From a virus, in the IMG/VR virus record IMGVR_UViG_3300034682_000427, positions 1-26,528 of that record: a stretch of DNA of 26,528 nucleotides; one strand, written 5' to 3'. The notes under the pieces are model-generated. The model made no database searches and was not told where the DNA came from. It saw only the letters and a list, made by a program, of their open reading frames with translations. The translations under genes were made by a program, and so were the position numbers. Positions 3,509 to 10,868 of this stretch are shown here, in pieces (the stretch's first letter is position 1; each line of letters opens with the position of its first letter).

Positions 3509-4119
3509 GGCGTCACCCGCTTGAACTCGACGACCCAGACCCACGGGTTGCCGATCCATGATTCGTCGCCGTTTATGCTGCTCCAGAGGCACTCGAACAA
3601 CTGGGCTGCAGTCAGCGTCTCGTCGGCGTCTGGCGCGTGGCGGAGAAAGCCAACGCCTTCCGCCTCGGCCTGCTCCTCGCTGATGTCCTGCAGGAGCTCC
3701 ACGCGCACGTCGGTGACCTCCAACAGGATGCGGCTATCGCGCCGGCGCATGTGAATGCTCGGTTTCCACGGACCGCCGTAGTCGGTCCGGTTATCGCACT
3801 CGCGATAGACCACCCAGCTTTCGCCAGGGGCCTGCGCCACATTGATCTGCGCCCATGCTTCTCGCACCCATAGACGGTCACCTGGCTGGCCATACGGGCA
3901 GGCAATTGGATGCTCGGTGCCTTTTGCATCCATGCAGCTCTCGTCAAAAGTGTGCATGGGGCGCCAAGACTCGTCTTCCTGCTGGTGAAGCTCGAAGCTG
4001 CTATCAGCGCTCCGCATGCTGGGCTTGATCTCGCGCCGCGTGACAGTCTTCTGGCCGTTTAGGATGGCGCGGACCATATGCCCGCTGAACAGGATCGGGC
4101 GTTCCTTTGCTTGAGACAT
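3505..4119 (-). CDS. ASCH-domain-like phage protein
   Basis: The 204-aa product carries PILFSGHMVRAILNGQKTVTRR near its start, followed by CPYGQPGDRLWVREAW at about residues 74-90 and LLEVTDVRVELLQDI further on. I recognise this as a common phage family related to ASCH domains (PUA-like fold), where the TRR and GD.LWVRE segments form the nucleic-acid or nucleotide binding pocket. The substrate of the phage members is not established; RNA or modified-nucleoside binding is the usual suggestion. AAGG lies about 7 nt before the ATG at 4119. It is the first of a tightly coupled run of genes down to 1841. Confidence 0.72.
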   Translation of the reverse strand: MSQAKERPILFSGHMVRAILNGQKTVTRREIKPSMRSADSSFELHQQEDESWRPMHTFDESCMDAKGTEHPIACPYGQPGDRLWVREAWAQINVAQAPGESWVVYRECDNRTDYGGPWKPSIHMRRRDSRILLEVTDVRVELLQDISEEQAEAEGVGFLRHAPDADETLTAAQLFECLWSSINGDESWIGNPWVWVVEFKRVTP

Positions 4120-4200: not shown

Positions 4201-4458
4201 TCAGGATGTGGCGATGGCTGCGCGTTCTGGAGCCTCGATGTTCAGGATCTGGAATAGCTCAGGTCCAAACTCGCCAAGCACGCCTTTGGCGATCAGGTGG
4301 TTCCGCAGTCGATCCAGCAGCGCATCCCGCTCAGCCAGCTTCTCGCCGGCCTCATGCAAATCGTTGTGCAACTGGGTGAAAGCGGTTTCGACTTTGCTGG
4401 AAGCATCGCCGGTACCGGCGTGCTCTGCCCATTCGCGCTCGGAAACCATCGCGGCCAT
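4201..4458 (-). CDS. Small helical protein, 85 aa
   Basis: Unknown function. The 85-aa acidic product is predicted helical, with a central coiled-coil stretch (LHNDLHEAGEKLAERDALLD) and an LRNHLIAKGVLGE motif. This resembles small phage proteins that carry a heptad region ahead of a short domain. The start is ambiguous: GAGG is only 2 nt from the ATG at 4458 and 11 nt from an ATG at 4449, so the true N-terminus may be three codons shorter. It follows the 105-aa gene by 9 nt. Confidence 0.6.
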   Translation of the reverse strand: MAAMVSEREWAEHAGTGDASSKVETAFTQLHNDLHEAGEKLAERDALLDRLRNHLIAKGVLGEFGPELFQILNIEAPERAAIATS

Positions 4459-4467
4459 GGCCTCGCA

Positions 4468-4785
4468 CTAGGTTAGTTCGGCGATCGCCGCCATTGTTTC
4501 ACTCTCGGCTAGCTCGACAGCGGCGCGATCGGTCATCGGCCCGAGGCCAACGATAGGCAGCCCAGTAGCCGCCGCATCCCGCTCTGCCTCTTCTTTGATC
4601 CACCAGATGGCAGTACCAACTATCCAGGCTATTGGCTCTGGGTGGGGCAGGGCTGGTTTGGCCAGCAAGTCGTGAATCTCCCACTTCGCGGCACTGTCAC
4701 TCGGCAGATGCGCCAGGGTGAGATCGACCAAGTCGCGCGGCACGCTGACCATCTCTGTGTTGCTGGATCGGTTTTCTGTGGGCAT
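4468..4785 (-). CDS. Uncharacterised phage early protein, 105 aa
   Basis: Unknown function. The 105-aa product has an N-terminal MVSVPRDLVDLTLAHLPSDS segment, which is a pattern seen in small phage proteins where a helix of the form VPRDLL precedes a disordered linker. A hydrophobic IAWIVGTAIWWI stretch at about residues 52-63 is too short to be a confident membrane helix. GGAG lies 7 nt before the ATG at 4785. Confidence 0.62.
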   Translation of the reverse strand: MPTENRSSNTEMVSVPRDLVDLTLAHLPSDSAAKWEIHDLLAKPALPHPEPIAWIVGTAIWWIKEEAERDAAATGLPIVGLGPMTDRAAVELAESETMAAIAELT

Positions 4786-8597: not shown

Positions 8598-8813
8598 ATG
8601 CAGATTTCTGCAGTGTGTGCAGCATGCGGGAGCAAGATGCTCGTGATTCCGGATGACGAGGCGGATCAGATGGTCCGCTGCAGTGAGTGCAATGCGGATA
8701 TCGGGGATAAAGCAGCGGTTACCGAAAAGTTAAGGGAGGCTGCGAAGAAAGAGGCCGATCAGCTTGTTCAGGACATGAAGAAGCGCCTAGATAAGGCGTT
8801 CAAGCGCCGCTGA
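8598..8813 (+). CDS. Small zinc-ribbon protein, 71 aa
   Basis: The 71-aa product begins with two CxxC knuckles (CAACGSK near residue 7 and CSECNADIG near residue 28), which form a zinc ribbon, followed by a charged helix (EKLREAAKKEADQLVQDMKK) ending DKAFKRR. It resembles the small ECs_2282-type putative zinc-binding phage/prophage proteins; the function of that group is unknown. AAGGA is 7 nt before the ATG at 8598. It is the only rightward gene inside the leftward early arm, and its 3' end overlaps the convergent 53-aa gene by 14 bp, so it is probably transcribed separately, perhaps in the lysogen. Confidence 0.75.
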   Translation: MQISAVCAACGSKMLVIPDDEADQMVRCSECNADIGDKAAVTEKLREAAKKEADQLVQDMKKRLDKAFKRR

Positions 8814-9222: not shown

Positions 9223-9251
9223 AATTTAGAAAACTAAACGGATCGCGTCAA
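9223..9251 (-). promoter_or_regulatory. Leftward early promoter PL
   Basis: On the minus strand, TTGACG (9251-9246) and TAAATT (9228-9223) are separated by exactly 17 bp. Transcription should start near 9216 and run through the leftward operon. One operator copy covers the -10 and spacer; another lies just upstream of the -35. Confidence 0.8.
9225..9239. promoter_or_regulatory. Operator OL, copy 1
   Basis: TTTAGAAAACTAAAC, with half-sites TTTAG and CTAAA around a 4-bp spacer. It overlaps the PL -10 and spacer, so repressor bound here would block PL. An identical copy lies 34 bp away, and related sites flank the cI/cro start region. Confidence 0.8.
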
Positions 9252-9258
9252 GATTTAT

Positions 9259-9273
9259 TTTAGAAAACTAAAC
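9259..9273. promoter_or_regulatory. Operator OL, copy 2
   Basis: Second exact copy of TTTAGAAAACTAAAC, centred 34 bp (about three helical turns) from the first and just upstream of the PL -35. The spacing would allow side-by-side cooperative repressor binding. Confidence 0.78.
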
Positions 9274-9357
9274 AGGCAAGGCGAGTGGGCGCCCCTACAG
9301 ACCGCGCAATGTCAAGACTTCCGGCTCTGTAGGAGATCGGCTAATCTTGCGTGGTCC

Positions 9358-9373
9358 CTGTATGGATATACAG
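9358..9373. promoter_or_regulatory. LexA (SOS) box
   Basis: CTGTATGGATATACAG fits the CTG-N10-CAG LexA consensus, with matching CTGTAT and ATACAG arms. It lies 15 bp before the DUF1654-like ATG and just downstream of a weak candidate promoter (TTCCGG at 9319, 17 bp, TAATCT at 9342). Confidence 0.82.
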
Positions 9374-9388
9374 TTAGTGGAGTGTCAG

Positions 9389-9703
9389 ATGGCAAAGCCC
9401 CAGAAGCAGCAGGAAAGAGCGGTTATGTCGGGTGTGGAGCGCCTAGGTCTTCGGGTGTCATCGATGATCAATCACCCGATCGCGCAGCAGCAGCGATGGG
9501 TCGTGATTTACCGCCTGGACACCGACGGTGACCGGGAGTGGGAAGAGGTGATGGGGATTCTCAAGGAAACTGACGGGATAGAAATGGAATTCAACGAGGA
9601 GGATGCCTCGGTTACGCTGCGTTGGGAGGCCTTCTCGGATGATGACCCTCGAGCGCAGAACCAGGATGAGTTCGTCGCGATCGAGGAGCCGGCGCCGTTC
9701 TAA
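9389..9703 (+). CDS. DUF1654-like protein under a LexA box
   Basis: The 104-aa product has the DUF1654 layout, a family I associate with Pseudomonas: VERLGLRVSSMINHPIAQQQ, then RWVVIYRLDTDGDREWEEVM, then a DASVTLRW strand and an acidic tail. Its molecular function is not established. The ATG at 9389 was chosen because GGAG is 6 nt upstream; an earlier in-frame ATG at 9362 lies inside the LexA box and has no ribosome site. The gene lies alone between PL and the convergent cI gene, in the place lambda uses for rex. SOS control suggests a role in induction or DNA-damage response, possibly as an antirepressor (inference). Confidence 0.8.
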   Translation: MAKPQKQQERAVMSGVERLGLRVSSMINHPIAQQQRWVVIYRLDTDGDREWEEVMGILKETDGIEMEFNEEDASVTLRWEAFSDDDPRAQNQDEFVAIEEPAPF

Positions 9704-9712
9704 GCGAGCAAC

Positions 9713-9740
9713 AAAAAGCCCGCGCTATGCGGGCTTTCTG
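9713..9740. terminator. Bidirectional terminator between DUF1654-like gene and cI
   Basis: AAAGCCCGC (9715-9723) pairs with GCGGGCTTT (9729-9737) around GCTAT, a 9-bp stem with an A run on one side and a T run on the other. It separates two convergent genes and should stop both transcripts. Confidence 0.88.
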
Positions 9741-9747
9741 GGATAGG

Positions 9748-10569
9748 TCACGCCTTCTTGGCGTTCCATATCAGCAAAACCTTCGCGTGCACCGTAACAT
9801 CATCGATCCGCGCGGTCTGGTTCTCGTAGTGCTTGTTGTCCGAGATCAGGCGGAAGTGGTCCTCATCGAGGCGCATCAGGCGCTTGATATACAGCTCTTG
9901 GTGCCAGGTGATCACGTAGATACCTTCACCGATGAACTCGTTGATCCCGCGATCGACAATGACCAGGTCCTTGTCGTTGATCGTGCCTTCCATGCTCTGG
10001 CCCCAGCCGGTAATCATCGCCAGTGCCGAGGGAGCGGTGTAGGTGACGCCTTTCTCGCGCAGTACCTCCTCGCGCACTACCAGGTTACGAACGGCCTCGT
10101 TGTAGTCGGCCGGCACCTGGCCGTGGCCCATGGCTGCCCGAACGTCGTACTGAGGGATAAGGATCTCTTCCTGGGTGGGTTTGAGGCTCGAGTAGGCAGC
10201 AGGCAGGTACTCCTGGCCCTGATCTGGGCTATCAGCCTCAGCCGCGGCGGCCATCATCACCTCGCGAGCCTTTTCGGAGAGGTTCTTCCCGGCCTTGGAG
10301 GCCAGCATCTGCGCAACCAGTTCTGCAGTAGTCAATGAAGAGCTGGCAGATGATGACTGGTCAGTAGCCTGGCCAGTACCGTCCGACAGCCATTGTGCTG
10401 AGCACTCTAGCGCTTTTGCCAAGGCGAGCAGGTTTTTGCCCTTGGCGCCGTTCGTTCCGTTGATCCAGAAACTCACGGTTGCCTTGGACACGCCAGACAG
10501 TTTGCTGAGGTCGGTGGAACTGAGGTTCAGCTCCTTCATGCGCGCGATAACGCGGTCTTTGAATTCCAT
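9748..10569 (-). CDS. CI-type prophage repressor (HTH plus S24 peptidase)
   Basis: Maintains lysogeny by binding the operators at PL and PR. Residues 1-65 form an XRE-type HTH (LSSTDLSKLSGVSKATVSFW), then a serine-rich linker, then an S24 peptidase/dimerisation domain. The catalytic pair is Ser192 (GQSMEG) and Lys229 (LYIKRL), 37 residues apart as in LexA (Ser119/Lys156). The usual Ala-Gly or Cys-Gly cleavage dipeptide is not obvious in the hinge; AAMGHG at 145-150 is the nearest candidate. The start at 10569 has no Shine-Dalgarno sequence, and a TAGAAT box 7 nt before the ATG suggests a leaderless message. It faces cro divergently. Confidence 0.93.
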   Translation of the reverse strand: MEFKDRVIARMKELNLSSTDLSKLSGVSKATVSFWINGTNGAKGKNLLALAKALECSAQWLSDGTGQATDQSSSASSSLTTAELVAQMLASKAGKNLSEKAREVMMAAAAEADSPDQGQEYLPAAYSSLKPTQEEILIPQYDVRAAMGHGQVPADYNEAVRNLVVREEVLREKGVTYTAPSALAMITGWGQSMEGTINDKDLVIVDRGINEFIGEGIYVITWHQELYIKRLMRLDEDHFRLISDNKHYENQTARIDDVTVHAKVLLIWNAKKA

Positions 10570-10570
10570 A

Positions 10571-10585
10571 TTTAGGATTCTAAAC
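10571..10585. promoter_or_regulatory. Operator OR, cI-proximal (OR3-like)
   Basis: TTTAGGATTCTAAAC shares both half-sites with the two PL operators. It covers the candidate PRM -10 (TAGAAT, minus strand 10582-10577) directly before the cI start, so binding here would shut off cI, as OR3 does in lambda. Confidence 0.8.
10577..10582 (-). promoter_or_regulatory. Candidate PRM -10 for cI
   Basis: TAGAAT on the minus strand ends 7 nt before the cI ATG, so transcription would begin at or next to the start codon. No good -35 is found, as is common for PRM promoters that depend on activator. Confidence 0.5.
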
Positions 10586-10586
10586 C

Positions 10587-10601
10587 TTTAGAAGTTTAGA
10601 T
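10587..10601. promoter_or_regulatory. Operator OR, middle (OR2-like)
   Basis: TTTAGAAGTTTAGAT keeps one perfect half-site and a degenerate second half. Its centre is 16 bp from the cI-proximal site, and it lies between the two divergent promoters, the place of OR2 in lambda. Confidence 0.55.
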
Positions 10602-10604
10602 AAC

Positions 10605-10633
10605 TTGCCTTGTGGTGTTAAGAACTCTAAACT
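10605..10633 (+). promoter_or_regulatory. Rightward early promoter PR
   Basis: TTGCCT (10605-10610) and TAAACT (10628-10633) are 17 bp apart, placing the start of transcription near 10640, about 19 nt before the cro ATG. The cro-proximal operator overlaps the -10. Confidence 0.68.
10617..10632. promoter_or_regulatory. Operator OR, cro-proximal (OR1-like)
   Basis: GTTAAGAACTCTAAAC has one exact half-site (CTAAAC) and one with a single mismatch. It overlaps the PR -10 hexamer, so repressor bound here would block cro and the replication genes. Confidence 0.7.
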
Positions 10634-10658: not shown

Positions 10659-10868
10659 ATGACCTTTGACGAAGCCCTGAACCATTTCCGAACCGGCCGC
10701 GCCATTGGTGAAGCTCTCGGCGTTTCCAGTAGCCGTGTGTCCCAGTGCCGGGCTGCTGGTGGTTTCTCCTACCCAATGCAATGCGTTTTGGAGAAGGAGT
10801 CAGACGGGAAGCTGGTCGCTAGACGACAAGACGTTCCTGGCGTCGACCCTCTGAAAAGCGCCGTTTGA
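10659..10868 (+). CDS. Cro-like repressor
   Basis: The 69-aa product has a single helix-turn-helix, FRTGRAIGEALGVSSSRVSQ, followed by a short wing, typical of small Cro/YdaS-type phage regulators. It is divergent from cI with the shared operators between them. GGAG sits 8-9 nt before the ATG at 10659; a longer frame from 10605 would begin inside PR. Cro should lower early transcription and favour lytic growth. Name and role rest on position and the HTH. Confidence 0.82.
   Translation: MTFDEALNHFRTGRAIGEALGVSSSRVSQCRAAGGFSYPMQCVLEKESDGKLVARRQDVPGVDPLKSAV

Follow-up and report, generated by a model that had tools for sequence, protein, structure and literature searches.

Several prophage genes controlled by LexA are already known, namely those for Tum, AntC and the Gifsy antirepressors as well as the dinI homologues (PMC3121763). 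Regarding SSB, it has been established that the pockets of its partners bind the carboxylate of the terminal Phe together with acidic residues of the tail (PMC5872125). Closer to the locus described here, the GenBank annotation of phage LKA5 includes a predicted LexA site upstream of the DUF1654 gene. The window, i.e., the whole 26.5-kb stretch of DNA that was analyzed (26,528 nucleotides), is a virus record most closely related, among sequenced DNA, to prophages and phages of Pseudomonas, and it contains a DUF1654 gene inside its immunity region. An earlier note on this DNA had stated that DUF1654 has no known function and our literature search agrees, the domain being merely named and no function ascribed to it. 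As the likeliest single explanation, albeit one that we place somewhat short of an even chance, we propose that this LexA-repressed prophage gene encodes a damage-induced mimic of the SSB tail.

Control of the DUF1654 gene by LexA, and thus by the SOS response, is near certain as judged from the sequences compared. CTGTATGGATATACAG (9358-9373), the sole exact CTGT-N8-ACAG retrieved by a motif scan of the window, is separated by 15 nt from the downstream ATG (9389) of a gene whose product matches PF07867 (DUF1654) with 86 bits for a Pfam gathering cut-off of 27, and the well-matched LexA site reported in the earlier note directly before a DUF1654-like gene is hence confirmed. When one mismatch is tolerated, the window contains 14 LexA-type matches for 8.2 expected, so that weaker sites mean little here. 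Among the best 80 viral homologues, the upstream site that fits best is CTGT-N8-ACAG without mismatch in 74 cases and has one mismatch in the other 6; with 80 genome loci added, the box is exact at 124 of the 160 loci and has one mismatch (mostly CTGG-N8-ACAG) at 36, the background in the same 1.4 Mb being 16 other exact sites or ∼0.002 per 150 bp. Such conservation is far beyond chance, and an operator of the LexA regulon located at a predicted promoter, within one mismatch of CTGT-N8-ACAG in 160/160 cases, strongly supports the SOS control beside the repressor that had been proposed. The recA gene was used as a comparison and had an exact box in 2/6 genomes, a result of a crude start-site search that is too weak to rest on.

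The promoter was called from the bases preferred at each position across 144 distinct upstream regions aligned on the box, which share a -35 position that is TT-rich and, after a spacer of 17 nt, an AT-rich -10-like hexamer with the box shortly 3' of it. The corresponding promoter of the window (Table 1) was left unflagged by a consensus promoter scan. This layout has the geometry expected of a LexA-blocked promoter, the box probably covering the start of the transcript, and we infer that LexA binds and represses the gene and that DNA damage induces it.

Table 1. Features of the DUF1654 locus and of the adjoining immunity region, numbered from the first letter of the window.
Feature	Position	Strand	Description
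Left operator, copy 1	9225-9238	.	CI operator-like palindrome TTTAGAAAACTAAA; putatively overlaps a leftward promoter-like site (9251-9223)
Left operator, copy 2	9259-9272	.	CI operator-like palindrome TTTAGAAAACTAAA; motif search
Likely sigma70 promoter of the DUF1654 gene	9319-9347	+	Weak -35 TTCCGG (9319-9324), 17-nt spacer, -10 TAATCT (9342-9347); putative
LexA box	9358-9373	.	CTGTATGGATATACAG; perfect palindrome just 3' of the -10, covering the likely transcript start
Ribosome-binding site	9378-9383	+	TGGAGT region, SD-like GGAG
DUF1654 gene	9389-9703	+	ATG to stop; 104 aa, acidic, computed pI 4.3
Folded DUF1654 domain	9431-9634	+	Residues 15-82, predicted a-a-b-a-b-b
Variable acidic linker	9635-9682	+	Residues 83-98, predicted disordered
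SSB-like C-terminal tip	9683-9700	+	E-E-P-A-P-F-COOH, residues 99-104, conserved
GC-rich hairpin	9715-9737	.	9-bp stem, T-runs on both sides/strands; probable shared terminator of the convergent genes
cI repressor gene	9748-10569	-	HTH_3 and Peptidase_S24 (Pfam); cleavage region RAAMGHGQ, Ser in GQSMEG, Lys in YIKRL
Right operator region	10571-10631	.	TTTAGGATTCTAAA (10571), TTTAGAAGTTTAGA (10587), TTAAGAACTCTAAA (10618)

The protein itself falls in PHROG 2707, a group of unknown function, and AlphaFold2 predicts with confidence an a-a-b-a-b-b core, residues 83-99 being disordered. Neither the DinI nor the YebG family was matched in Pfam and NCBIfam scans, no NCBIfam model matches the protein, PADLOC assigned it to no defence family and a sequence search of the PDB returned nothing. 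Likewise, no SSB (OB-fold) domain was matched, in line with the predicted a-a-b-a-b-b fold. Fold comparison against the PDB gave no significant hit, the best (E 0.18) being an R3H domain, and comparison against viral structures gave only uncharacterised small phage proteins (E ∼0.01), which were not used. PA3414, first considered as a P. aeruginosa relative, was dropped, one paper describing this protein as YebG-like.

DUF1654 is nearly confined to Pseudomonas: 129 of 149 Pseudomonas genomes have it, three of 146 genomes of an order-wide sample pass the cut-off, the reference Pseudomonas being among these three, and none of 14 control genomes has it. The best-scoring copies represent a chromosomal form of ∼80 aa, with FW(T/V)VPK(E/D)D as its typical C-terminus, and all 36 chromosomal copies inspected (L166-L171 and L194-L223) have an exact LexA box. 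With no repressor nearby, this form usually leads an apparent operon that includes an EndX-type endonuclease I gene; among the 30 loci L194-L223, 21 have an endonuclease I gene that follows DUF1654 on its strand after a gap of 5-71 nt, the PF04231 identity being confirmed for one of them. The 229-aa form of this endonuclease fits P. putida EndX (PP_2451, 687 bp) (PMC11684315). Of note, the apparent DUF1654-EndX operon with its exact LexA box suggests an SOS-induced, probably exported nuclease. Exact boxes also precede two order-level outgroup DUF1654 genes (39-49 bits). With boxes on phage, chromosomal and outgroup copies alike, LexA control appears as a property of the whole family and not as a peculiarity of this prophage, and DUF1654 would thus constitute a Pseudomonas-wide LexA-regulated (DNA-damage-response) family with prophage and chromosomal branches. 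Paralogues may also coexist in one phage, since YMC11/07/P54 (L186) has a second gene annotated DUF1654 (3668-3907, reverse strand); a weakly similar ORF of the same phage, possibly the same gene (4382-4621 in reverse-strand coordinates), is preceded at 60 nt by CTGTATATTCGTACAG, an exact LexA box.

A feature that distinguishes the protein of the window from the chromosomal form is its C-terminal tip. A PF terminus is present in 137 of 139 distinct tailed homologues, mostly as E-E-x-A-P-F, nearly all of them having Glu at -5 and -6; in the homologue alignment, P103 is invariant and E99, E100, A102 and F104 are each conserved at ≥90%. Among control ORFs from the same loci, 4/2149 end in PF, and one of these has at least two acidic residues before it. 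The tip codons vary synonymously among the 139 distinct proteins, which points to selection on the protein, while the tail extends 22 to 28 residues past the domain in nearly all tailed homologues, a variation in length which implies that the motif is anchored to the C-terminus. Moreover, conservation is stronger in the tip than in the linker. The anatomy is thus that of an SSB C-terminus, with acidic residues and Pro-Phe-COOH at the extreme end of a predicted disordered linker. However, the bulky aliphatic residue (Ile/Val/Leu) expected at -3 is missing, DUF1654 tails having nearly all Ala there. Host SSBs terminate in FDDDIPF in the six of these genomes that were sampled. In the phylum sample, from which about one third of the SSBs were not recovered and one further row was read in the wrong frame, those retrieved end in I/V-P-F. 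Ala at -3 and the usual presence of only two acidic residues count against a mimic, whose affinity for SSB-tail pockets is a prediction. The tip is present in the phage proteins of AUS531phi (HEEPAPF) and D14O (EEDETPF) and is absent from the short P. aeruginosa phage forms F116, LKA5, phi297 and LESphi3 and from the chromosomal form, so it is not required for the role of the core domain. In one locus (L231), an SSB-like gene lies ∼7 kb from a tailed DUF1654 gene (G005:C109:58418-58612; G005:C109:65341-65538); its DEDIPF motif is internal and followed by RALPYLAGA.

Regarding the surroundings, the DUF1654 gene and an S24-type cI are convergent in the window and the hairpin at 9715-9737 lies between them, in agreement with the earlier description of a gene facing cI across a terminator; the folding z of this hairpin is -2.2, and a simple terminator scan left it unflagged. 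TTTAG-N4-CTAAA, a motif resembling a CI operator, is present at 9225 and 9259 and again beside cI within 10571-10631. The DUF1654 gene is located between the left operator and cI and its promoter overlaps neither operator; hence CI should not silence it. A convergent S24 CI gene is found downstream in 153 of 160 DUF1654 loci, at less than 150 nt in 74 of them, at 150-1000 nt in 22 and at more than 1 kb in 57, and the same gene order occurs in F116, LKA5 and LESphi3. In these 57 loci, the interval holds other genes and looks like an insertion site for accessory genes, those of annotated phages being ParA-like, BrnT-like and integrase-like. The S24 repressors encoded by DUF1654 genes' neighbours carry Met (AAMGHG/AAMGGG) in place of Ala or Cys immediately ahead of the Gly presumed to be scissile and have kept the Ser and Lys; with this Met, self-cleavage of CI is not certain despite the S24 domain and the Ser/Lys dyad. 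Elsewhere in the window are found a Cro-like 69-aa regulator of PHROG 409 divergent from cI (10659-10868, + strand), a 37-kD nucleoid-associated protein NA37/YejK (PF04245; 5663-6754, - strand) among the leftward genes of the phage, and a small zinc-ribbon protein (8598-8813, + strand) with weak, sub-cut-off similarity to Lar restriction alleviation proteins.

How, then, should a LexA-controlled gene in such a position be interpreted? The earlier note favored an antirepressor, and a damage-induced DUF1654 protein could indeed bind and inactivate CI in the manner of Tum (phage 186) or GftA (Gifsy-2). The LexA box combined with a site beside cI, the convergent orientation of cI in all 153 loci with an S24 CI and the uncertain cleavability of a repressor with Met before Gly would fit this idea. 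DUF1654 and CI also co-diverge when adjacent (rho 0.67), but rho drops to 0.29 for loci in which more than 1 kb separates the two genes, the pattern expected of linkage rather than of a dedicated partnership, and the comparison is confounded by clade structure and linkage. Moreover, known LexA-controlled antirepressors act on non-cleavable repressors (PMC3121763), whereas CI here retains a Peptidase_S24 domain with its Ser/Lys dyad, and the chromosomal LexA-regulated form adjoins an endonuclease with no repressor nearby. Because the family occurs without a neighboring repressor and CI retains its peptidase, the antirepressor proposal finds no support in these comparisons and we consider it improbable. 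As DUF1654 is a genus-wide damage-response family and as an SSB-like tip is present, interference with DNA repair or replication is likelier than an action on the phage repressor.

Within such a role, the active part could be the core domain, the protein acting family-wide as an SOS effector that modulates RecA, replication or division in the manner of DinI, YebG or SulA, and the PF tip being the addition of one clade. Indeed, the domain and the LexA box are common to tailed, untailed and chromosomal forms, and many LexA-regulated phage genes, such as the Gifsy dinI homologues, encode modulators of this kind (PMC3121763). Against this stand the lack of any sequence or fold match to DinI, SulA or YebG and the conservation of the tip above that of the linker; we rank this reading second, after the SSB-tail mimic, and judge it rather unlikely. 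Alternatively, the tip might be a short signal of another kind, for turnover or for another partner. SOS proteins are often short-lived, which would suit a turnover signal, as would Ala at -3 in place of Ile/Val. Yet, no degron with acidic residues and a terminal P-F is known to us. In combination, these are what SSB-tail pockets recognize (PMC5872125), and a different signal is a distinctly unlikely reading.

In the SSB-tail mimic that we prefer, the gene would be repressed by LexA and transcribed independently of CI, DNA damage would lead to cleavage of LexA, and the small acidic DUF1654 protein would then be made. Its E-E-x-A-P-F-COOH tip, carried by a flexible linker, would imitate the acidic P-F tip of the host SSB and dock in the SSB-tail pocket of at least one host enzyme, such as RecO, ExoI, RecQ, PriA, DnaG, HolC or RadD, the DUF1654 domain possibly contributing a second activity or contact. 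That the tip docks on SSB-binding repair and replication enzymes is a tentative proposal, to which we give rather less than an even chance. As for the consequence for the phage, we infer that host repair and RecA loading might be recruited, diverted or blunted during induction, or that replicating phage DNA might be protected. This explanation is close to the other possibility raised in the earlier note, that of a gene needed at induction. In its broadest form, namely that a standard immunity-region gene of Pseudomonas prophages is a LexA-induced SSB-tail decoy seizing the host SSB hub upon damage, the proposal is more doubtful.

DUF1654 hence moves from the curiosity of a single prophage to a Pseudomonas-wide damage-response family with chromosomal and prophage branches, the former putting an EndX-type endonuclease under apparent SOS control. 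If the tip does bind SSB-tail pockets, the phage would exploit the SSB hub at induction and would provide a natural peptide competitor for a much-studied antibacterial target. A decoy of the SSB tail would also be, if true, an unrecorded route by which temperate phages control host repair, RecA loading or replication; our literature search, which covered few subscription journals, did not turn up any phage protein described as mimicking the SSB tail.

Compared with known systems, the gene of the window resembles those of Tum (186), AntC (N15) and GfoA/GftA (Gifsy), all small genes of temperate phages silenced by LexA and activated by damage, as is predicted here, although family searches detect no sequence similarity between these proteins and DUF1654. 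In addition, the Gifsy antirepressors are located outside the immunity region (PMC3121763) while the DUF1654 gene is within it, and the CI of the window carries an S24 peptidase, whereas known LexA-controlled antirepressors target repressors that are not cleavable. With bacterial SSB (tip DDDIPF), the protein shares a disordered linker ending in acidic residues and Pro-Phe-COOH, but it differs by the absence of an OB fold or SSB domain, by Ala at -3 and by mostly two acidic residues instead of three. DdrB from Deinococcus radiodurans is a precedent for a damage-induced protein that is not an SSB and has a purported SSB-like tail, as well as a warning, this tail being dispensable for radioresistance (PMC3834827); DdrB binds and anneals ssDNA, and no similarity of DUF1654 to it was detected. 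Finally, F116 gp28 and LKA5_028 (PF07867/PHROG 2707) have the same domain as the protein of the window, a LexA box likewise ∼15 nt before the start and the same placement between the leftward genes and cI. These two proteins lack the acidic x-P-F tip, whereas the protein of the window and most homologues from environmental Pseudomonas prophages possess it.
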